Assembly (NCBI GenBank): GCA_001632435.1
Contig: KV423915.1
Coordinates: forward strand, 247,653-311,652
Direction of reading: 5' to 3'
Source of the DNA: Calocera cornea HHB12733
Taxonomy: Eukaryota; Basidiomycota; Dacrymycetes; Dacrymycetales; Dacrymycetaceae
DNA: 64,000 nt
Made by a program: the position numbers and the translations under genes. Position 1 is the stretch's first letter. Every line of letters starts with the position of its first letter. Below, in pieces: positions 22,304-44,284 of the stretch. Under the pieces are notes generated by a model. It searched no databases and was not told the origin of the DNA. It saw only the letters and a list, made by a program, of their open reading frames with translations.

Positions 22304-25300
22304 ATGGTGCGCTCCGAACTCCCCCCGCCAGTCGCTTCGACCTCCGCATCCCTGCCCACGCCAGTCCCCACGCCAACGACGTCCACACCCGGCTGCGGCC
22401 TGAGTAAGCGGCGCTCCTCCTCTCGCGGACGTTCCGGCAGCCCCAAGCGCCGATTCCCCCTCCCCGACACCGACACATGCGCCTCCTCGTCCACAGCCCC
22501 CTCCTACGAGCTCTGCGAGCGCACTTTGGTGCAGTACGACCAGCTCGGGGGCGGATCAGAGATCGACGCGCTCCTCCCCGAGCTGCGGCGCGCTGTCTCC
22601 TCGGGCTTGTACGTCAGCCGCGCCTGCACGTGGCAGGCTCTGCTCGGGCTCGCCCTCGCCTTCCGCTTCGACATGCATGACACTGTGGAGGACCTCGAGG
22701 AGGCCAGGGTGCTCATGGAGCGATGCGTGAGGGGGACGGAACTGCGCACGGGGGCGCACACGCAGGCGCTCTTTGCGCTCGGAAGGGTGTGGGAGGCCGC
22801 GTACCGGCACTGGGGGAGCACGGACGTGCTCGACCGGGCGTACAAGTGCATCATGGACGCGCGCGCGAATGCCGAGGCGGATTGCTCGGGCGACAGCGCG
22901 CGGTACGTCGATGGGCTGGATATGTTCCAGGGGTGGCTTTTGACCTGGCATATACCTGTCATTCGCGCCGGGGGGGATCTCACAGAGGCCATCGCGCTCG
23001 TTTCGGCCGGACTGGACAGGCTGAGCGATACAGATCCGTGGAAGGCACTCGGGTTGGGTATCCTCAGCCGCGCCTACCGCTGGCAGTGGCACCTCACTGG
23101 CTGCTCCGACTGGACATACCTATACAAGAGCGACGAGGAGGTGCGACGCGCGCTCGCGCTGCATCCGAACCACCGGCGGCGGCACTGTCTCCTCCACATG
23201 CTTGCCAGCACCTGCCAGGACCGGTTCGACGGGGGCGAGGGCATCCAGCACCTGCACGAAGCGCTGTCCGCTTCGCAGGAGAGCGTGCGCGGCGTGCTCA
23301 AGAAACGGCCCAAGGTCACCCGCTTTGAGGACAAGCAGGTTGTCCAGAGCCTGGCCATGGCATACTTCACGCTCTCGCGCGCCGAGGGCCGCCTGCAAGA
23401 CCTCGACAAGGCGATCGAGTACCAGACGCTGATCAGCGAGACGAGCGGGCGGGACGAGCCCCCGAGCTTCTTCCTTAATCTCTGCATCTTCCTCTCCTTC
23501 CGCTTCCGGATCGCAGGCCGCCTGATCGACATAGACAAGGCGATCGAGGCCGGGCACCAGGCACTCGAGCGCACGCGGCCAGACTCCCTCCAGACCGAGC
23601 TCACCCTCTCCAACCTCGGCAACGCCCACGCCCTCCGCTTCGTGCACGGGGCGGACCAGGCCGACTTTGACGCGGCGTACAAGTACCTCGACAGCGCTGC
23701 GGCCCGCGTCCGCGCGAACAAGTGCACCATCGCCCTCCTGCCATGCATCACCCGCGCGCTCGCTAGCATACACGACATCCAGTTCGAGACGCACGCCCGG
23801 CTCGAGGACATCGACCTCGCCGTGCGGTACCAGCGCGAGTGCGTCGCCGTCGCCGGGGAGAACTTCGAGAAGCCCTCCTTCTACTCCGAGCTCGCGCGCT
23901 ACCTCTCCAAACGGTACGAGGCGGGCGGGGACGAGGCCGACCTCAACGAGGCGATCATCAACCACGAGATTGCGCTCGCTACCGTCGCCGAGGGGCTCAC
24001 GGAGCGCCACATGATCCTCTGGCGGTACGGCAACTCGCTCCGCCTCCGGTACAAGCTGCACCGCGATGCGCAGGACTTTGACAACTGCGCGCGCATCATG
24101 AAGGAGGCTGCCGTCCTCGCCCGGTCCGCCGTGCACCCCAAGACGTCCCAGTACCTCGGCGAGCTGGGCAGCCTCTTTCACATGCGGCACGACGCGCAGG
24201 CCGACGTCGAGGACCTCAACCTCTCCCTGCGGTACTACGCCGTGTCGTACGCCGTGCCCGAGGGGTTCATCGACAACCGCTTCCACTCGGCGCTCGCGGC
24301 CGCCCGGCTCGCGCAAGACCACGGCCGGTCGAAGGACGCTGTCAGGGCCTTCTCGGCGGCGATTGGGATGCTGCCCCGGCTCGCGTGGCTCGGGCTCAAC
24401 TCAAGCAGAAGGCATGCCAAGCTCATGTCTACTGCCAGCCAGCTCGCGTGCGACGCTGCTGCGTCGGCGATTCAGGCTGGCCTGCCGGAGCGTGCGGTGG
24501 AGCTGCTGGAGGAGGGGCGTAGCGTGCTCTGGCGGTCGATGATGGAGCTGCGCACGGACTTCAAAGGGCTCGAGAACACCGCGCCGATGCTGGCGCGGGA
24601 GCTTGTTCTCGTCGCCCAGTCGCTCGAGTACGACTGCATGAGCAGCGCCAAGCTCACTGAACGGCAGATGGAGGAGCGTGCGCAGCACCGGCGCCGCACG
24701 GCCGAGCGATGGGAGTTCCTCATCGAGGAAGTGCGCAAGCTGCCCGGCTTCCAGAGCTTCCTCATGCCCCTCCCCTTCTCCGAGCTGCGCAAAGCCGCCG
24801 CCGAGGGGCCCGTCGTCATCCTCAACGCGAGCCGGTACAGGAGCGACGCGCTGATCATCCCGCCCACGGGGCTCGTCCGCTGCATCCCGCTCGAGGGGCT
24901 CGACTTCCACACCGTCAAACAGCTCAACTACGTCTTCTCCAAGGCGATGCGGATCCCGCGGGACTCTAATGGCTGCCGGTTCATCGAGCAGCTTCTGCGC
25001 GCCGTCGCCTCGCGGCTGTGGTACGGCGGTCTGTCACAGGTCGCCGACGTGCTCGCCTCGTACAGGCCGCCGGAGGGCGACAAGCTCTTCCGCGTGTGGT
25101 GGATGCCGACGGGGCTGCTGAGCCTACTGCCGATCCACTGTGCGGGTCCGTACGATAGCGCTGTGGAGAAGGAGGGGATTGCGGACCTGTTCATCTCCTC
25201 GTTCACCACCACGCTTTCGTCCCTGCTCGCGGCGCGCAGTTCGAAAGCCAGCGGGCCGAGCGACACGCCGACGCGCATGGTCGCCGTCTCCCAGCCCTAC

Positions 25301-25861
25301 ACACCGGGGAACGTCCCCCTGCGGGCGGCCGGCGTGGAGATCGAAGTGCTGGCGCAATCGCGCTTCTCGCCCTCCATCACATTCCTCCACGAGTCCACCG
25401 CGTCCGTCTCGGCCGTCACCGCGGCGCTCACCACGCACAACTGGATCCACTGCTGCTGCCACGGCCACTGGGAGGCCGAGCGGCCGCTCTCCTCCGCCTT
25501 CGACCTAGGGGACGGCCGGCTGACGCTGCAGCACATCGTCTCGCTGCGGCTGGCGCAGGCGGACTTTGCCTTCCTCTCGGCGTGCCACACGGCGCGGCAG
25601 TCGACGGCGCTCCCGGACGAGTCGATGCACATTGCGGCCGGGCTGCAGATTGCGGGATTTCGCGGGGTGCTGGCCACGGCGTGGGCGATGGCGGACCGGG
25701 ATGGGCCTGCGCTGGCGTGGCACTTTTACGCGGCGCTCGAGGAGCTCGGCGGACTCGAGGCGCGCAACGCGGCGCGGGCGATGCAGACGGCGGTGAGCAA
25801 GCTGAGGCAGGAGGGGATGCCCATGTTCCGGTGGGCTGCGTTTGTGCATATTGGGATTTAG
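22304..25861 (+). CDS. Intronless TPR-CHAT domain protein
   Basis: Single open frame of 1185 residues, unusual here because almost every other long gene is spliced. Residues 1-65 are Ser/Pro-rich. About 70-740 form a run of TPR-like helical repeats with recurring units such as DLDKAIEYQ, DIDKAIEAGHQAL, DLNEAIINHEIAL and DIDLAVRYQRECV. Residues about 890-1185 form a CHAT domain, a caspase/separase-like fold. The catalytic histidine lies in CCCHGHW (H1053) and the cysteine in FLSACHTA (C1094), followed by AGLQIAGFRGVLATAWAM. Both catalytic residues are present, so an active cysteine protease is plausible. Basidiomycetes carry expanded sets of TPR-CHAT genes; roles in heterokaryon or innate immune-type cell death are hypotheses. 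No partner such as a gasdermin was recognised nearby. Confidence 0.88.
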   Translation: MVRSELPPPVASTSASLPTPVPTPTTSTPGCGLSKRRSSSRGRSGSPKRRFPLPDTDTCASSSTAPSYELCERTLVQYDQLGGGSEIDALLPELRRAVSSGLYVSRACTWQALLGLALAFRFDMHDTVEDLEEARVLMERCVRGTELRTGAHTQALFALGRVWEAAYRHWGSTDVLDRAYKCIMDARANAEADCSGDSARYVDGLDMFQGWLLTWHIPVIRAGGDLTEAIALVSAGLDRLSDTDPWKALGLGILSRAYRWQWHLTGCSDWTYLYKSDEEVRRALALHPNHRRRHCLLHMLASTCQDRFDGGEGIQHLHEALSASQESVRGVLKKRPKVTRFEDKQVVQSLAMAYFTLSRAEGRLQDLDKAIEYQTLISETSGRDEPPSFFLNLCIFLSFRFRIAGRLIDIDKAIEAGHQALERTRPDSLQTELTLSNLGNAHALRFVHGADQADFDAAYKYLDSAAARVRANKCTIALLPCITRALASIHDIQFETHARLEDIDLAVRYQRECVAVAGENFEKPSFYSELARYLSKRYEAGGDEADLNEAIINHEIALATVAEGLTERHMILWRYGNSLRLRYKLHRDAQDFDNCARIMKEAAVLARSAVHPKTSQYLGELGSLFHMRHDAQADVEDLNLSLRYYAVSYAVPEGFIDNRFHSALAAARLAQDHGRSKDAVRAFSAAIGMLPRLAWLGLNSSRRHAKLMSTASQLACDAAASAIQAGLPERAVELLEEGRSVLWRSMMELRTDFKGLENTAPMLARELVLVAQSLEYDCMSSAKLTERQMEERAQHRRRTAERWEFLIEEVRKLPGFQSFLMPLPFSELRKAAAEGPVVILNASRYRSDALIIPPTGLVRCIPLEGLDFHTVKQLNYVFSKAMRIPRDSNGCRFIEQLLRAVASRLWYGGLSQVADVLASYRPPEGDKLFRVWWMPTGLLSLLPIHCAGPYDSAVEKEGIADLFISSFTTTLSSLLAARSSKASGPSDTPTRMVAVSQPYTPGNVPLRAAGVEIEVLAQSRFSPSITFLHESTASVSAVTAALTTHNWIHCCCHGHWEAERPLSSAFDLGDGRLTLQHIVSLRLAQADFAFLSACHTARQSTALPDESMHIAAGLQIAGFRGVLATAWAMADRDGPALAWHFYAALEELGGLEARNAARAMQTAVSKLRQEGMPMFRWAAFVHIGI

Positions 25862-26532: not shown

Positions 26533-28472
26533 ATGTCGACGTCGCACGCATACAGCGAGGACGGGCGGGTGGCGTTCCCGGCCTCCGCGGCCCCGCACTC
26601 GCACGCCCAACAGCGCCGGCTCTCCCACTCCCACCCGCAGCAACCAGACCCCTCCCAGTCCCCGGCCCAGCAAGGCGGGTACTACACGCCCTCCCCGCCC
26701 ATGCTCCACCCCCAGGGCTCCCCCACCCCGTCCCAGTCCAGCACCAACAACCCCAACGCCAACGTCAACGCCGCCGGGCCCGGCCAATACCCCGCGGACG
26801 GCGGCTTCTACGCGCCCCAGCCACAGCAGTACCACCTCCAGCAGCCCGGTCAGGCCATCTCCCGCTCCCCCTCGAGCATCAACGGCCACCTCCCAAACTC
26901 GGGCGCATCCACCTACAGCTACAACATGCATGCACCACAGCCGGCCAAGCCGGGCGACCCCTCCCCGCCCGCGCCCCCGCCGCTCCTGGACCACTCCCAC
27001 CTCCGCCCGGGAAAGAGCGCGCTGCTCTTGAGCCACGACCGCACGCTCGAGCTGTACCGCGCGAACGCAAAGAAGACCCACGACCCCGAGCTCCAGTTCG
27101 AGTTTGCCGTATTCATGATCGACGCCGCAAAGTCCCTCCCCGCCACCACGCTCGCCGGCGGCGACGCGACCAACCCCGTCGCGCAGGAGAAGGCGGACGC
27201 GCGCCAGGCCGACCTCCTGCGCGAGGCCCTCGCGCTCCTCAAGCGCCTCGCGGACAGGGGACACTCGCCCAGCCAGTACTTCCTCGCGGACTGCTATGCG
27301 AACGGCCTGGGCACGACCAGAGGGAAACAGGACTTTGACCGCGCCTACCCGCTCTTCGTCCTCGCGGCCAAGCACGGCCATCCGGATGCCTCCTACCGCG
27401 CCGGCACGTGCTGCGAGAACGGCTGGGGCTGCCGGCGCGAGAGCGCAAAGGCCGTCCAGTTCTACCGCAAGGCCGCCGCCGCCCTGCACCCGGGGGCCAT
27501 GTACCGGCTTGGGCTAGCGGAGCTGAACGGCGAGCTCGGCCTGTCCAAGCGGCCGAAAGAGGGTGTCAAGTGGCTCAAGCGGAGCGCGGAGCACGCGACG
27601 CACGAGTTCCCGCACGCGCTGCACGAGCTCGCCCTGCTGCACGAGCGCGGCGTCGAGAACGTCGTCTTCGTCGACTATGAGTATGCGGCCGAGCTCCTGG
27701 CCCAGGCCGCCGAGCTCGGCTATGCGCCCAGTGCGTATCGGCTCGGCGAGTGCTACGAGTATGGCAAGATGGGCTGCCCGCAGGACCCGGCCCTCAGCAT
27801 ACACTATTACGTGAGTCCTCCCTCCCCGTCTCCTGTCCCCGCGCATCTCCCCTCGCCCCGCCCTCGGTGCAGTGCAGGGTGGGATCAGCGGGGCCGTGCG
27901 TTATCGCGTGCGCTGGCTGACCCCCGCGCCGCTCTCCCGCAGAACATCGCCGCCCAGCAGAATCACCGCGACGCGTGCTTCGCCCTCACCGCCTGGTACC
28001 TCGTCGGCTCCCCCGGCGTCCTGCCCCAGAGCGACACCGAGGCGTACCTGTGGGCGCGGCGCGCTGCCGATCAGGGCCTCGCCAAGGCCCAGTACGCTGT
28101 TGGCTACTTTCTCGAAGTCGGCATCGGCGTGGGCCAGGATTTGCATGAGTGCGTCCCTTTCCCCTGCCTCTTTTCCTCTGTCGCGTGCTGTGCTTCGCCC
28201 TTCTCGGGGATGTGGGATGTTGGATGTTGGATGTTGCGCCATTGTGCTGGTGCAAGAGAGCCGAGCCGAGCTGAGCTGATGCGGTTGCGCGCGCGTGTGT
28301 GTGCAGGGCCATCCAGTGGTACAAAGCCGCGGCGGAGCAGAACGACAAGCGCGCGATCCAGCGCCTCAGGAGCAACATGGCCCAGGCTGGGCCCATCTCG
28401 CCCCACGACGCCATCCTCAGCCGGGGCGAGGCGAACGAGGCGGGCAAGGACGGCGCTTGCGTCGTCATGTGA
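26533..28472 (+). CDS. SKT5: SKT5/CHS4-like Sel1-repeat protein, chitin synthase activator
   Basis: Exons 26533-27810, 27943-28148 and 28307-28472 give 549 residues. Residues 1-155 are Pro/Gln/Ser-rich. Residues 165-540 hold about seven Sel1-like repeats (for example ADCYANGLGTTRGKQDFDRA, GTCCENGWGCRRES, GECYEYGKMGCPQDP and GYFLEVGIGVGQDLHEAIQ). The C terminus is C-V-V-M, a farnesyl-type CaaX box; yeast Chs4/Skt5 likewise ends in a CaaX box that anchors it at the plasma membrane, where it activates chitin synthase III. The match of repeat type, length and CaaX tail supports the assignment. The introns of 132 and 158 bp are longer than usual for this window. Confidence 0.85.
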
Positions 28473-28579
28473 GGGGCTGGGTTGGGCTGGGTTGGGCTCG
28501 CGTGCGTGCGTACGGCACTCCTCCGTCGGGTGTTGCAGGCTGCACTCGTACGCCGTCGTAGCCGCGGCCAGAGGCGGGA

Positions 28580-28616
28580 TGCACCATGCACCATGCACCA
28601 TGCACCATGCACCATG
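28580..28616. repeat. ATGCACC microsatellite
   Basis: About five 7-bp units downstream of the SKT5-like gene. Confidence 0.8.
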
Positions 28617-28729
28617 TTGGACGCGGACGAAGCAGCGCGGAACGCAGAGACGACGAGTAGACACGCCAACCGCGCGCTGGGCGCGCCGGAGCCGGAGCGC
28701 AGCGTGAGCCGGAGCAGGACCCGGCCGTC

Positions 28730-30757: not shown

Positions 30758-32863
30758 TCATGCGGACACCTCAGTTAAGTCTTCGACCCATTTCCACCGG
30801 TCGCTCAACCCTTCCTCGACCTTCCACCTCTGTGCGCCCAACCACCTCTCAATCCTCGCCTCGTCCTCCCTATCTCTGTCCAAACCCTCCAGCCGATCCT
30901 TGAGCACTGCCAACTCGCCCTCCTCGCCACTCATCGATGAGCACGCCCAGCCGACACAGATCATCCCGGGCACGCGTGCCTCTCCAGAGCGGTCGACAGC
31001 CTCCACGACATGCTCTAATGTAGAGAGCACAACACGTTGATCGGGCGAGCTGCCGCGCTCGATAATTGCTATCGGCGTGTTCTTCGGGTAGCCGAGTTGC
31101 GGGCTGAGCATACGCTCCACGAGCTTGGCCAGGCGCGCGACGCCCATAAGCAGCACAGTCGTCCTGCTTCGCTCATAGGAAGGCAGGTCAACTTCCCTAC
31201 CACCTCGCCCAACGCCGGTGCAGATTGCAACGCTCTCAGCGACACCGCGCTGCGTCACGGGAATCTCGGCAAGTAGCGGTCCTGCGAGCGCCGAAGAGAT
31301 ACCCGGTATAATGAGTGGATGAAATCCGGCTGCGCGGAAGGCTAACAGCTCCTCCCCACCCCGCCCATACAAGAAGGGGTCGCCTTGCTTCAGCCGCACG
31401 ACCGTCTCTCCGCGCCGTGCAGCCGCGAGTGCCAGGTCGATCAGCTCGCTCTGCGCTCCCTCCGCATTGCCAGGGAACTTCTTGGCGATATGCAGCTCCG
31501 TGGTGCTGGGGATGAGCGCGAGGACCTCGGACGGGACGAGCTTGTCGGAGAGGACGACGGTTGCGAGCTTCGTTAGTGCAGTGTGGGCGGCCATGGTGAG
31601 GAGAGAAGGATGGCCGGGACCAGAGCCGACGAGAAGGATGCGACCCTGCCGAGGTAATCGTTCGAGGGCGGAGATGTTGAGCGAGTGATGCGATGCTAGA
31701 TCCATCTCGTCGTTTGAAGACGAGATTCCGCCACTCTTCATGCCCGCGGTGAGAGCTGATGTACTGGCCGCAGGCTGTGACAGCCCATCTGGGGATAGCC
31801 CCACGCCGGGCGCTCCAACTTCTTCTCCCCCTGAAGTTTTCGACCTTGCCGTACACCGCCTCCTCACCTCCCCGCTCGGCACCTTCTCAGCCCTCGCCCT
31901 CAGCAGCTCCCTCATCTCCCCCTCACTCATCGCCGCGAGTTTCTCCAAGCTCCAGTACTCGCTGACTTGCGCAACCCAGCGCATCCTCCTCCTCGCTGCT
32001 TCAGTACGCTCGTGCTCTTCCTTCTCTATTTCGGAGGCGGAGAGTTGCGGGACGGGTGTATTCAGGGGGCCGGAAGGATAGGATGGATCTTCGTCCCTCT
32101 CCGCGGCCATCTCAAAGGAGGAGGCGGTGGGCAGATCAGTAGCCCTGGCCATCCTCCGCAGCTTCCCAACAGCCTCGACCGCGTCTCCCACGGACGGCGG
32201 GAGAGAACGAATTAACTGTCTCCTGATCCTCGAGGCGAGTCGGCACCCCTGGCCATTGGCGGTGAGCGCCAGTTGAAGACTCGATTTGCGCGGTTCTGAG
32301 TTTGTGGTTGCGGTCAATGAGCTGACGCTTGAAGCCAATGGTGGCGAAAGGGGAAAGCGGTAGGTTGAAGGGAATGTGAAGTCGCATAGCTGTGGTGTAT
32401 CCGCGACCGTGATCGGTATTCGAAAGCTGCGGCATGTCTCGGCGACGCGGGTGGCCGATTCGACCGTTCGCACATAGGCGGAGTCGTCCACCAGCGTATC
32501 CGTTACGCAGACGAGCATCACGTCTCCTGCCTCCTCAACAATCTCCCGCATCTCCTGCTCAGATTCCACCCCATCATGCACGAGTAGCTCCACCTCCCCT
32601 TGAGATGCCCGCCAGCACAGCTCCTCACACACCTCCGCTCCCCTCTGAGCTACAACGACGACGCGTGCTCCTGCTTCGAGCGCGACGAATGCGCGGGATG
32701 CCGCTAGTCTGTTGGAGCCAATGATGAGGATGGTGCGCGACTGGGGATGGAAGGAAAGCAGGAGGGAGACGCCTAGTGTTGGGGTGGGATATGGGGCCGT
32801 TGAGGTACTCGTGCTGGGCAAGGACGGTTCCCAGGCGGATGGCGGAAGGGTGAGGATCGACAT
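30758..32863 (-). CDS. Siroheme synthase, Met8-Met1 fusion (uroporphyrinogen-III C-methyltransferase)
   Basis: Intronless, 701 residues. Makes siroheme, the cofactor of sulfite and nitrite reductases, from uroporphyrinogen III. The N-terminal third resembles Met8/CysG-N: a Rossmann segment (RTILIIGSNRLAASRA ... GARVVVVAQRG) and VADTPQLCDFTFPST, for precorrin-2 oxidation and iron insertion. The C-terminal part, from about 405, is the SAM-dependent methyltransferase with VGSGPGHPSLLT, VRLKQGDPFLYGRGGEE and IIPGISSALAGPLLAEIPVTQRG. The linker of about 170 residues is Ser-rich and low-complexity. Yeast keeps these as separate MET8 and MET1 genes; a fused form is known in filamentous fungi and bacteria (CysG). 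The first ATG sits close to the expected domain start. Confidence 0.9.
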   Translation of the reverse strand: MSILTLPPSAWEPSLPSTSTSTAPYPTPTLGVSLLLSFHPQSRTILIIGSNRLAASRAFVALEAGARVVVVAQRGAEVCEELCWRASQGEVELLVHDGVESEQEMREIVEEAGDVMLVCVTDTLVDDSAYVRTVESATRVAETCRSFRIPITVADTPQLCDFTFPSTYRFPLSPPLASSVSSLTATTNSEPRKSSLQLALTANGQGCRLASRIRRQLIRSLPPSVGDAVEAVGKLRRMARATDLPTASSFEMAAERDEDPSYPSGPLNTPVPQLSASEIEKEEHERTEAARRRMRWVAQVSEYWSLEKLAAMSEGEMRELLRARAEKVPSGEVRRRCTARSKTSGGEEVGAPGVGLSPDGLSQPAASTSALTAGMKSGGISSSNDEMDLASHHSLNISALERLPRQGRILLVGSGPGHPSLLTMAAHTALTKLATVVLSDKLVPSEVLALIPSTTELHIAKKFPGNAEGAQSELIDLALAAARRGETVVRLKQGDPFLYGRGGEELLAFRAAGFHPLIIPGISSALAGPLLAEIPVTQRGVAESVAICTGVGRGGREVDLPSYERSRTTVLLMGVARLAKLVERMLSPQLGYPKNTPIAIIERGSSPDQRVVLSTLEHVVEAVDRSGEARVPGMICVGWACSSMSGEEGELAVLKDRLEGLDRDREDEARIERWLGAQRWKVEEGLSDRWKWVEDLTEVSA

Positions 32864-36949: not shown

Positions 36950-38191
36950 ATGGCTCAGCAACCATTAAAGGTACACATATACCCTGACAGCTGGCAGGAA
37001 CTGGCTGACCGCTCCCAGCGCGTCCTCGTCACCGGCGGCGCAGGTTACATTGGCTCGCACATCGTGCTCACCCTCCTCCTGACACGGCAATACAAGGTTC
37101 TCTCCATTGACAATTACCACAACTCCTTCCCCACCGCCTTGAAACGTGCGACGCAGATCGCGACCGAGGCTCTCCCTGCAGATGCAACTGAGCAGGATCG
37201 TGACTCCACGGTAGTCGAGTCGTTCACCGGCAACCTCAACCTGCGCGCCGACGTCGAGAAGGTGTTCGCGAGCGGGCCCCTCTGGGGCGTCATTCATGTT
37301 GCTGCGCTCAAAGCGGTGGGCGAGTCGAGCGAGCTCCCGCTGGACTACTATGCCACAAACGTGGGCGCGACGATCCAGCTACTGCAAATCATGCAGGAGC
37401 ACGGGTGCCACTCGATCGTCTATTCGAGCAGCGCGACTGTCTACGGGACACCGCCCCTCGTGCCCATCCCGGAGACTACGCCGCTCAAGGCCGAGAGCGT
37501 GTACGGGCGGACGAAGGTCATGTGCGAAACGATCCTGTCGGACCTGTGCAACGCCTATCCAGACAAGTGGCGGGCGATCTCGTTGCGGTATTTCAAGTGC
37601 GTATATGCCAAGAGCGGTATAGCTGCACGGATGCTGACTTACGTGGGATCTAGCCCCGCAGGCGCGCATACATCTGGCCTGATGGGCGAGGACCCACGGG
37701 GCAAGCCGGGCAACCTGCTCCCCCTGCTCTCCCAGATCGCCATCGGCAAGTACGCCGACTCCCCGCTCAAGGTGTTCGGGAACGACTACCCAACACCGGA
37801 CGGCACCTGCGTGCGGGACTACATCCACATCCTCGACCTTGCGCGCGGGCATCTGCTCGCGCTCGAGGCGCTGTCCGACGAGCGCGCACCGGGCTCCACC
37901 ATCTCCCCCGACGTGTTCCCGAAGGAGGGCGGCAAGTACAAGGCGTACAACCTCGGCAAGGGCCACGGGCAGAGCGTGCTCAGCATGATCGCGGCAATGC
38001 ACAAGGCGTCGGGATTCGAGTACAAGTACGAGATCATCGGCAGGCGCGTGGGCGACGTGCCCGACCTCACGGCCGACCCGGCGCTGGCGCGGAAGGAGCT
38101 GGGCTTCTCCGCCCCGCTCGAGCTGGAGCAGATGTGCGAGGATCTCTGGCGCTGGCAGTCGATGAACCCGAATGGGTATGGCGAGCAGTGA
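36950..38191 (+). CDS. GAL10: UDP-glucose 4-epimerase
   Basis: Exons 36950-37596 and 37654-38191 (57-bp intron) give 394 residues. Interconverts UDP-galactose and UDP-glucose in the Leloir pathway and supplies UDP-Gal for glycans. It is a short-chain dehydrogenase-type enzyme. The NAD-binding glycine motif is [11 protein letters not shown], the Ser/Thr loop is [10 protein letters not shown], and the catalytic Tyr-Lys pair lies in YGRTK. The substrate end has [13 protein letters not shown], created by splicing, with [20 protein letters not shown] and [12 protein letters not shown]. Unlike yeast Gal10 there is no C-terminal mutarotase domain, the usual state in filamentous fungi and animals. 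Confidence 0.95.
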
Positions 38192-38743: not shown

Positions 38744-40318
38744 CTATGCGAGGGTAGTCCCGAGCTCCCAGCCGAGCCCGCGCATCGTCTGCACGAGCCG
38801 CTTCTGCCGCTGAGTCGCGATCGGGTGCGGCGCACGGAGCATCATGTACTGGTCGACTCTCCAGCGGCTGCCAATGCCGAGCTCGGGCGGAGGGGGGCCG
38901 ATACTGTTGCCGTACGTTGCGAGCAGGCGCTTGAGCCGCGCTGATGCGCCCGCGGGATCGACGAGGATCTCGTGGGTGAGGAACTGCTGCAGGCCCTTGC
39001 GGGAAAGCGCGGGCGTGCGCTCGACCACGGCCGCGTTCTGCGGGTGCTGCGTGACGACGTTGGCGTACTCATACTCGAGCGCGTTGTACAGTCGCTGCGT
39101 GGTGTCCGCGTTGAACAGGGTGAGGAAGTCGGAGCGGCCCCAGGCCCACTCGAGGAAGTACGTGCGGGACATGTCGACGAGGCCCGACTTGGTAGGCACT
39201 TGTTTGACTGCACGCATCAATCACAGGAATCAATCAGATCAACTCGGGAAACCGGCATATATGCACTCACAAAGCCAATCGGCGAGCGCTATGCTGAGCG
39301 CCTCCAGCTTGGGCGTAGCCTTGCCATTGGGCAGCACGAGCGCCTCCCGACCAGCGGGGTGCGTTGCGCCCGGCCCGGCATCACTCCCGACCTTCGTCCC
39401 TAGCCCGCCACCGTCTAAACTCCCAATAGGGGAGCTCGCAGGGGAGCTGTAGACAGGACTCCCAATGGCACTCGATACCGTCGGCGCCTCGGAGATGTTC
39501 ATCTTGTGCGTCGGGACGGCCGTCCCGTACCCTGTCGTCCTGCCCGTCTCCCTGCTCCCGTTCCTGGCCATGTCGCGCGGGGAGAGCGCGGGTTGGCCAG
39601 AGATTCCGGGGATCGCGAACCCGTCTGCTTCGGGCATGACGCTCGGTGGCCGCTGGGGGTAGGCGGACAAAGGGCGCTGGCAGGCGGAGCAGAACTGGAA
39701 GTGGTGTTCCGTCGGCACGCGGGAGTTGCAGTGCGGGCAGAAGCGGGTGATGGGTGGGTAGTAGACTGGCGAGCTGGGGTTGACCATTGCGGCGGGGGAT
39801 GCGAGGCTGCCGCGGGTGTTGATCTGCACACCGGGTATGTTCATATGCTGGACTGGGATGGGGGAGATGGGTGCGGAAGGCGGGGGCGAGCCGGCGTAGG
39901 CGAGTGCACGGCTCATGCGCTCACGTTCCTTGCGGGGTGAGTGAAGCTTTGTACTGCTCTGCCTGCTCATTGGCGGTCGCTGCATTGCGCCGATGGGGGA
40001 GAGCGGGGAGAGGATAGGCGGGGAGAGGACCGGGGGGGAGCGGGCGCCGGCGTAGGGGACGTAGGTGACGAACTGGGGTGGGGGTTGGCCGGGCGCGTAC
40101 GGCATCTGTACGAGGGGGACGGCGGGCATGACGGGGTATACTGGCACGGCGGGGAGCTGCAGCGGGGGCAGCGAGCGCGCGCGGGAGGCGTACGACGCCG
40201 GGAGGAGGGGAGACGAGGAGGAGGAGGGCGCAGAGGCGGCGAGGGAGGCAAGGGTCTCGCGAGTTTTGGTGTTGGAGCGGACGCTTTTGCGAGACCGGCT
40301 GCGGGACAGGAAGCCCAT
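38744..40318 (-). CDS. Zinc-ribbon protein of unknown function
   Basis: Exons 39271-40318 and 38744-39207 (63-bp intron) give 503 residues. The N terminus has an Arg/Ser-rich start (MGFLSRSRSRKSVRSN) and a long Pro-rich segment. A double CxxC motif (CPHC ... FCSAC), a likely zinc ribbon, lies near residues 195-215. After a Ser/Gly-rich linker, the last 170 residues look folded: FKQVPTKSGLVDMSRTYFLEW, LYNALEYEYANVVTQHPQN and KGLQQFLTHEILVDPAG. No family was recognised. The start was taken at the first ATG after which composition becomes protein-like. Confidence 0.72.
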
Positions 40319-41956: not shown

Positions 41957-42953
41957 TCAAAACGGAGCCGCGGCTGGGACGTGCACCATTGAGTTGGCGT
42001 CGCCCGTTGGGCAATCTTGCCCGCTGGTGCAGCCGGGATAGCCGTCGCCCTGCCAGCTCGGTGAGTCAAACTGCTCAACGCGCTGGTCAGGCACAGAACG
42101 CACCCGGTCTGCTCGAGGTCGTTTCGTAGCCAGGATGCGCGGCATTTCGTTGGCGTCTCCCGCCGGGCAGTTTGCGCTCGTACATCCTTGACCGGGGTAG
42201 CCCTACCAACTAAGTGAGTCAAGCTAGTCACTGGTCTGGCTTAGCAAATTACTCACGTCTGATCGGGGCCGGTTCACCCCCAGGATGTGCCGCAGTTCGT
42301 TGGCGTCTCCCGCCGGGGTGTTTCCGTTGGTACATCCCTGGCAGGGATCGCCCTTGTGTACCAGTTCAGTAAGTCAGTCTGGTCCCTGTTCGGGACACGC
42401 AGAGACGCACCGCTGATGGGAGCTTATTCGTGGCCAGGGTGAGCTTCACTTCGTTGGGTTCTCCCGCTGGACAGTCTTGACCGCTCGTACAGCCAGGACC
42501 CGGCTCTCCCGGCTACCCAGTTGAAGCGGACATAAGTCAAGCTCTCTTGATGTGTATGGTATACAGATTACGTACTTCGGATACCAAGCCGCTTGTAAAC
42601 GTCGACAATTCAGCTCCAAGTTCTCCGGAGAGGACGTTCTTCTTTCCGCTGGGCTCTGCCTCCGGACAGCCCTGTCCGCCGAGGCCGCGACAGAGCAGCT
42701 CGTTACCCTACCGAATCCAGGACGCCCTGTGTCAGGTACTGTCTCTTGCTTTGCTACATTCAAGATGTACCATGTGTCGTAGCTGGCTTTGAATTACCCA
42801 GGGCTCCGCACCAGTCGTTTTGTTGTATCCTGGTCACTCAGGTTCAGATCAAGGCGGCGTTCACTAGACATTGAGGACGTTACCTAGCTGATAGCCCACG
42901 GCCCTGCTGAGCAAGACCAGAAGGACGGTGTTGGTTAGGAACACGATTTTCAT
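41957..42953 (-). CDS. Secreted Cys-repeat protein built from serial repeat exons
   Basis: Seven exons on the minus strand: 42884-42953, 42798-42829, 42576-42707, 42411-42512, 42257-42352, 42104-42202 and 41957-42049; total 207 residues. Exon 1 is a 23-residue signal peptide (MKIVFLTNTVLLVLLSRAVG) closed by a phase-1 intron. All later introns are phase 0. Exons 4-7 each encode one copy of a repeat of about 33 residues: G-Y-P-G-x-GCTSGQDCPAGDANE, then x(4)-L-A-T-K-R-P-R-A-D in the best copies; exon 3 is a diverged copy (GLGGQGCPEAEPSGKKN). Each strong copy has a C-T-S/N core. One copy has a Lys-Arg pair, others Asn-Arg or Asn-Lys. Intron ends are also alike (GGTAG, GGCAG), so whole exon-intron units were duplicated. 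TATTTAAG lies 93 bp upstream. Secreted; function unknown. Confidence 0.72.
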
Positions 42954-44284
42954 GACGTTGAGAGATGAGCGAGTGAGAGGAAAATTGCGTTGGATGTGGT
43001 GGTGGGAAGGATAGGAGATAGACGTATACTCGGGGCAGGTCTCTCTTAAATACCTGATTCCAGGGCGGAACCTCGTTTCAATCCCGGGGATAAGGCCTAT
43101 GCTGACCACCGATGCATACGGAGCTATGACCTCTATGACTCCTCTCTGGTAGGTGAATTGTACGAGGATATTTCGGTCACCTGATCAAGGGTTGAAACTG
43201 GGCGCCTATGTGGCAAGTATTCTCCGCGGCCTTTGTACATAGAGGCCCCTGCAGAACTCTGCACACATAGGATATAATGGTCTAGACCAGTTTCACTCCC
43301 CGATGGCGCTTGCACTCTACAGTGTCCCCTGTACAGCCCCCGGTGATGCAAGGCCACGTAGCCGGACGTTCGGGGATTCAGTCATGATGATTAAGATCCG
43401 GCTCACGCGACTCGACTATCCATACCCGTGCATGGGCGCTTAACGCTGCCACGTACATAGCGTGTAACATTCAGGCAAAATAATATTCCTTCTCGCTCAC
43501 CTGCGGTACCGCTGGCAAACAGTGTCCGGCTACTTGCACAACAACCGGACGTGCGAACGCGCCATACATAGGTGGATCATATCAGGGGGAGGTGGACAGC
43601 GATAGATATTTCCTTGGCACAGAGTAAACCATAGTACCTTGCAGAAGGGGCCTGGCCCGTTCGTCAGAGTAAATGAGAGCTCACATGCCACTAAGGGATG
43701 CATGACGATGGACATGGATGTCCGGTTGGAGCACGTCACGCGGGCGCACCTTGTGATTCCAAATGACAACTGAGAATGTCAGCTGCGGATTTCTTTTCAA
43801 AATATTTTCCAATAACCTGTACTAACCGGCCAGACGGTTTCGTATGGCTTCAGTCAAGCCAAGTCTGAGTGTTGCTTGAAGGGTTCGCCTGCGGACGTTG
43901 TATGGCACGGGAAACAAGCCAGGTCCCCTTGAGCTACAGTGAACAGCCCTTCTGGACCTGGCGCATGGAGCAGAGCATTACTCGATGGGGCACTTGTATG
44001 TCAAATGACAATCGAGACCACAAGCCGACGTGACGTTTCAGTCGATTGGCTACATACAGTAAATGCTAGCCGGGAGGTGCTTCGGAGCTACAACACAGCA
44101 AACACATGAGTTACTGTCCCATACATGTGGCTCGTACTACAAGAACATAACTTTCCAAGGATATAGGCCAAGGTCTGGACTGCTGTGGCTTCCAGGAACC
44201 GTTGATGAAGACATTTGAGGGAGTAATGAGCTATGCAACCCTCATAAACGACCACAGTCTCTCGGCCCATCCCCCCGCCTCGTC
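42954..44284. other. Intergenic region between peptide genes
   Basis: Contains the promoter of the repeat-exon gene (TATTTAAG at 43045-43052, minus). Short minus-strand frames at 43133-43357 and 43530-43769 have no signal peptide or motif. Confidence 0.4.
43045..43052 (-). promoter_or_regulatory. TATA-type box of the repeat-exon gene
   Basis: TATTTAAG on the minus strand, 93 bp before the ATG, matching the box of the two genes to the right in sequence and distance. Confidence 0.5.

Follow-up and report, generated by a model that had tools for sequence, protein, structure and literature searches.

Whether a short run of similar exons represents a working gene or the remains of an old repeat is the question raised by a locus on the minus strand of the 64-kb window (the whole stretch of DNA that was analysed), and if a gene is indeed present, both the nature of its product and the manner in which its repeats arose have to be accounted for. 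The gene model, which runs from 42953 to 41957 on the minus strand, comprises seven exons and six introns, all of the latter bounded by GT and AG, and joins into a coding sequence of 624 nt, stop codon included, that encodes 207 amino acids. Exons 1 to 7 measure 70, 32, 132, 102, 96, 99 and 93 nt; the phase is 1 at the end of exon 1 and returns to 0 with exon 2, and the introns between exons 3-7 all lie in phase 0. The features of the locus are as follows.

43046..43052, minus strand: TATTTAA, resembling a TATA box, 99 bases upstream of the start codon; a consensus match only
42884..42953, minus strand: exon 1, start codon and signal-peptide-like MKIVFLTNTVLLVLLSRAVGYQL, ending in phase 1 (from splice sites, frame and hydropathy)
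42830..42883, minus strand: intron 1, 54 nt; resembles no other intron significantly (58-326 of 500 shuffles equal)
42798..42829, minus strand: exon 2, short linker with one N-glycosylation sequon, NKT; the least certain exon of the model
42708..42797, minus strand: intron 2, 90 nt; a weak likeness, confined to intron 3 (9 of 500 shuffles)
42576..42707, minus strand: exon 3, 132 nt, phase 0-0; unit 1, diverged, with GQGC and two Cys
42513..42575, minus strand: intron 3, 63 nt; like introns 5 (0 of 500) and 6 (4 of 500), not significantly like intron 4 (106 of 500)
42411..42512, minus strand: exon 4, unit 2, beginning PGEPGPGCTSGQDCPAGEPNE, phase 0-0 (from splice sites and unit alignment)
42353..42410, minus strand: intron 4, 58 nt; like introns 5 and 6 (0 of 500 shuffles each)
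42257..42352, minus strand: exon 5, unit 3, phase 0-0, beginning GDPCQGCTNGNTPAGDANE, with the Cys pair placed differently
42203..42256, minus strand: intron 5, 54 nt; like intron 6 (0 of 500 shuffles)
42104..42202, minus strand: exon 6, unit 4, from GYPGQGCTSANCPAGDANE to ATKRPRADR, with the sole KR of the protein, phase 0-0
42050..42103, minus strand: intron 6, 54 nt, a multiple of three, free of in-frame stops
41957..42049, minus strand: exon 7, unit 5, from GDGYPGCTSGQDCPTGDANS to PAAAPF, and stop codon

The four repeat exons given in the preliminary description (42411-42512, 42257-42352, 42104-42202 and 41957-42049) proved to be exact, in that each is open, lies in phase 0 and is preceded by AG, with GT following the first three and a stop codon closing the last; its total of 624 nt for seven exons was likewise reproduced, stop included. 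If splicing proceeds as modelled, exons 3-6 form a run of consecutive symmetric (0-0) exons, and exons 3-7 are alike. Read through intron 6, exons 6 and 7 make up one continuous 81-codon frame, and retention of this intron could keep the frame and join the last two units by 18 extra residues. The leader is 73% pyrimidine in the 60 bases that precede the start codon. A CTGAC/TTGAC motif is found in introns 2-6, starting 20-28 nt from the intron end, and in each of introns 3-6 a C/T-TGACT motif starts 20-28 nt before the end.

Repeat units and the copying of exon-intron modules

Five Gly/Pro/Cys units are encoded by the locus, one per phase-0 exon (exons 3-7), of which that of exon 3 is diverged. 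Aligned to the unit of exon 4, protein identity reaches 44% for exon 5, 50% for exon 6 and 52% for exon 7, and 25% for exon 3. At the level of the module, the score of exon 3 against the exon-4 module exceeds all of 300 shuffles (z 7.0), while it is equalled by 4 of 300 against the exon-6 module and by 34 of 300 against the exon-5 module. The earlier designation of exon 3 as a decayed copy is thus correct as regards the copy, whereas ‘diverged’ fits better than ‘decayed’, since the exon is open, its splice sites are intact and it carries two cysteines. The unit motif proposed at that stage also requires qualification: CTSGQDC is present in full in two of the four units then listed (exons 4 and 7) and absent from exons 5 and 6, exon 6 carrying C-x4-C and exon 5 lacking the second consensus Cys and having another one upstream.

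Similarity between the repeats extends to the introns. Among introns 3-6, no shuffle aligned as well as pairs 3/5, 4/5, 4/6 and 5/6, and few did so for pair 3/6, the similarity of pair 3/4 being not significant. Intron 1 or 2 is part of nine further pairs, in eight of which, pair 2/3 being the exception, 58-326 of 500 shuffles scored as well. Despite indels, the lengths of the unit exons (132, 102, 96, 99 and 93 nt) are all multiples of three, and introns 3-6 measure 63, 58, 54 and 54 nt. Since five of the six pairs of introns 3-6 are alike, as are the exons, it is complete exon-intron modules that appear to have been copied, and their serial duplication in phase 0 is supported by these sequence comparisons. 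The shared intron ends that had been noted previously are therefore borne out and extended by similarity beyond that of shuffles, and the suggestion that whole modules were copied is upheld by exons and introns together.

In an ungapped scan of one strand, as given, for 90-nt stretches recurring 120-190 nt apart with at least 62% identity, the locus was the sole such site of the window, and a repeat finder (repeats of at least 40 nt within 1000 nt) reported one family in the window, located at this gene. A further module remnant after the stop codon, plausible by eye, scored as shuffled sequence does (200, 488 and 62 of 1000). No significant likeness to a module emerged from local alignment of the sequence after the stop, of intron 2, of the stretch spanning exons 1 and 2, or of the upstream sequence.

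Predicted protein and search for relatives

Exactly two cysteines are present in each of the five units. Exons 4 and 7 share the spacing C-x5-C; in exon 6 it is C-x4-C, in exon 3 C-x7-C and in exon 5, where the pair lies at different positions, C-x2-C. Random placement of ten cysteines would yield two per unit with a chance of 1.2%, and in simulations of neutral drift from two-Cys units the pair was kept in 0.4-5% of cases for five units and in 1-9% when four were counted. The chain is Gly/Pro-rich and acidic, with a net charge of −7 after residue 20, and its N-terminus is hydrophobic (Kyte-Doolittle maximum of 2.4, residues 3-13). Of the signal peptide and secretion previously proposed, it is the hydrophobic N-terminal stretch that was found, and from this stretch only is secretion deduced. 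The product may be a small secreted cysteine-rich protein.

DNA and protein searches of the genome to which the window belongs (32.1 Mb, 302 contigs) returned only this locus among the best candidates scored. A motif pattern, used as a possible guide to paralogues elsewhere, gave four matches, two of them in this gene and the others on contigs C175 and C210; neither of the latter two showed a unit-like repeat when all three frames of the strand concerned were translated. Protein searches covered annotated entries with exact five-residue words in common with the query, at lengths of about 114-362 and 71-226 amino acids, and among 5.8 billion proteins they yielded 544 and 7 word-sharing candidates, none of which scored E 10 or better. 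The best Pfam match was SAP25 (E 0.064, 13.3 bits as compared to a cut-off of 27), NCBIfam gave no match at E 1 and PDB none at E 10; nine pattern matches among viral contigs included no relative, and Rfam gave no match at gathering score in the 38-46 kb region. The gene thus appears, from these searches, to be single-copy and lineage-restricted. An annotated protein with the present reading was found in neither protein search, and this result was counted against the gene, since such a protein should have come up had an annotated copy of the gene been in the database.

Coding constraint and rival explanations

The locus could instead be a decayed gene or a degenerate tandem repeat of DNA with a period of about 150-157 nt, in which old exon-intron copies persist and no protein is made; we regard this explanation as unlikely, although a number of results point towards it, including the lack of annotated relatives in protein searches. 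Exon and intron parts of the modules are about equally diverged (identity of 0.66-0.78 for exons and 0.65-0.72 for introns, where gaps raise the intron values except for pair 6/7; in that pair, aligned without gaps, 0.65 for the intron and 0.68 for the exon), and the expectation that exons would be better conserved was not borne out; exon identity being hardly above intron identity, protein constraint is weak. Pairwise dN/dS simulations gave values of 0.08-0.39 for full-length units (n=6, none below 0.05) and 0.04-0.53 for the core (n=6, one below 0.05), so that 11 of 12 lie above that level. Codon bias is also weak: usage is slightly coding-like (−0.086 bits per codon, as compared to a best value of −0.087 in 500 shuffles), and an antisense frame with five stops scores higher (+0.037). 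Against this explanation stand the 12 splice sites, all GT/AG in the model, the seven open exons, whose stop-free frame recurs in 11 of 5000 base shuffles in a test biased by the choice of exons for openness, the two cysteines per unit, and the signal-peptide-like exon in front of the units. A tree-wide codon model further gave an omega of 0.49-0.50 between units, and omega=1 was weakly rejected in all three tree topologies (2dlnL of 4.60-5.05, or p of about 0.03 with one degree of freedom). A gene is also favoured by unit exon lengths that have stayed multiples of three and by the TATA-like sequence and pyrimidine-rich leader ahead of the start codon. Equal rates of synonymous and nonsynonymous change between units, which the preliminary description had named as an outcome that would tell against it, are therefore weakly rejected by the tree-wide model and left standing by 11 of the 12 pairwise simulations. 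On the sequence as it stands, the locus would quite probably be a fast-evolving real gene, the other reading being a decayed or non-coding repeat.

If the gene is real, its repeats could also be those of a Kex2-processed repeat precursor (KEP), perhaps alpha-pheromone-like, from which Cys-pair peptides with G-Q-x-C would be freed by cleavage at basic sites; in favour are its repeated sequence, a secretion-like start and two cysteines per unit. GQ-x-C in exons 3, 4 and 7 recalls the RFCHLPGQGCSK motif described in PMC6339444, in which a two-Cys basidiomycete KEP of Trichosporon oleaginosus provides a parallel and basidiomycete secreted repeats with alpha-pheromone-like features are described; these repeats are the nearest functional lead. 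The KEP pipeline set out there demands that cleavage at KR/RR (or KK) sites leave four or more fragments, three or more of them similar repeats, and the present protein is far from this: KR occurs once (residue 171, in exon 6), KK once (residue 56) and RR never, and the earlier proposal of a precursor processed at K-R is not sustained by these numbers (pipeline of PMC6339444). Dibasic sites bound no repeat, no unit contains Trp, and no Ste13-type XA/XP follows KR or KK, such that the combination of Kex2 release and Ste13 trimming that marks an alpha-pheromone precursor was not found. A search for STE2 in the same genome gave no match, as was also the case in 14 control genomes, and one STE3 locus was found (contig C41:145089-146099). 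Agaricomycetes usually carry several STE3 genes. A KEP is considered improbable here, and the sequence makes a peptide precursor appear less likely than an intact chain of loops. The UstYa family is known from ascomycete dikaritin peptide pathways, and a dikaritin-type (ustiloxin-like) RiPP precursor, modified by UstYa-like cluster enzymes, would also display a signal-peptide-like start and repeats; the genome contains one UstYa-family match, but this single match sits on another contig (C16:276888-277109), and no UstYa was present among the 59 ORFs scanned out of the 185 listed (at least 60 aa) at 33-53 kb, a scan in which enzymes with short exons could be missed. Within the same 59 ORFs, Pfam at E 0.001 recognized only a zinc-type alcohol dehydrogenase and DUF7514, with no sign of a peptide-modifying cluster, and a dikaritin origin is deemed highly improbable.

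A number of other features were observed in the window. A siroheme synthase-like ORF of 701 aa (30758-32863, minus strand), with tetrapyrrole methylase, NAD-binding and sirohaem synthase domains, lies 9 kb away; among the best 120 of 1072 matches, its best match outside the window is from Calocera viscosa (89% identity over 36% of the query, in the best local alignment), with Tulasnella, Gelatoporia and further Basidiomycota next. Calocera is a member of the Dacrymycetes, and the genome is therefore probably that of a dacrymycete, a jelly fungus, in keeping with the basidiomycete setting presumed in the preliminary description. A UDP-glucose 4-epimerase ORF of 413 aa (36950-38191, plus strand) is longer than its best solved relative by about 46 residues over the aligned stretch, a surplus that is possibly an unspliced in-frame intron. 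Two long single-exon ORFs adjoin one another on the plus strand, one encoding a CHAT-domain protein of 1185 aa with weak TPR matches (22304-25861) and the other a Sel1-repeat protein of 724 aa (26533-28707). At 40003-40227, four purine-rich rows of short tandem repeats (GCGGGGAGAGGACAG and others) lie in a region where long ORFs overlap on both strands.

Proposed origin and known systems

The explanation that we favour, and consider fairly probable, is that of a small, apparently lineage-restricted secreted protein, consisting of a chain of disulphide-closed loops that grew by exon-module duplication. An ancestral exon of about 33 residues with one Cys pair, together with the adjoining intron, would have been copied in tandem about four times; since every copy begins and ends between codons, as is the case in the gene model, each copying event would add one module with the frame unbroken. 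The putative signal peptide of the start exon would direct the chain through the endoplasmic reticulum, where the two cysteines of each module may close into one small loop. The result would be a flexible string, rich in Gly and Pro, of five loops each closed by a disulphide; its action would lie outside the cell, possibly on neighbours or within the wall or matrix, this last step being the least certain. Skipping of a unit exon also keeps the frame, and isoforms with fewer loops may therefore be produced. That the protein is in addition newly born, restricted to dacrymycetes and growing by phase-0 exon-intron modules of one loop each, with skipping generating isoforms that differ in loop number, is a more ambitious proposal, offered tentatively and with considerable doubt.

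If this more ambitious proposal is true, the locus would represent a recent, small and readable case in which a modular extracellular protein arises in fungi by exon duplication. Fungi commonly possess small secreted proteins for which no relatives are known, little being understood of how most of them arise. At this locus the steps are still visible: exon and intron were copied, the frame was kept, and each unit has a Cys pair even at shifted positions. Should transcripts confirm the gene, the locus would allow exon-module duplication to be put to the test, and its timing to be established, among jelly fungi; should it be unexpressed, the locus would be an ordinary decayed repeat.

Several known systems resemble this one in part, and the locus is assigned to none of them. 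Schistosome micro-exon genes encode proteins implicated at the interface with a host or partner and are made up of a number of small exons in a common phase; the likeness is one of plan, and the present locus differs in organism and in that its exons are visibly copies. The fungal small secreted cysteine-rich proteins are also short, with a signal-peptide-like start, an even number of cysteines and no relatives found, and, to our knowledge, are not usually described as being built from serial exon copies. In open-licence literature, no description of such a serially exon-duplicated secreted-protein gene was found among titles and the opening lines of abstracts. KEPs, including the ascomycete alpha-pheromone precursors (PMC6339444, PMC9769878), are likewise secreted fungal proteins with similar short repeats, some of them with two cysteines; here, in contrast, units are not separated by KR, RR or KK, each occupies its own phase-0 exon, and no homologue was found. 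Of three KEP papers (PMC6339444, PMC9769878 and PMC7329392), none uses the word exon, and intron appears once in one of them and not at all in the other two. The SP7-like effectors of arbuscular mycorrhizal fungi are also secreted fungal repeat proteins, in which the first repeat lies behind a conserved intron (PMC11333574), whereas here every unit has an intron before it and the organism is a basidiomycete; the likeness is again one of plan. The same holds for the bicycle genes of aphids, whose products, implicated at the interface with a host or partner, have Cys motifs and are assembled from several small same-phase exons. These genes form large families (476 in one aphid) with about 17 exons on average and phase-2 internal exons (PMC9168663), while the present locus is a single gene with exons of 93-132 nt in phase 0 that can still be recognized as copies of one another.
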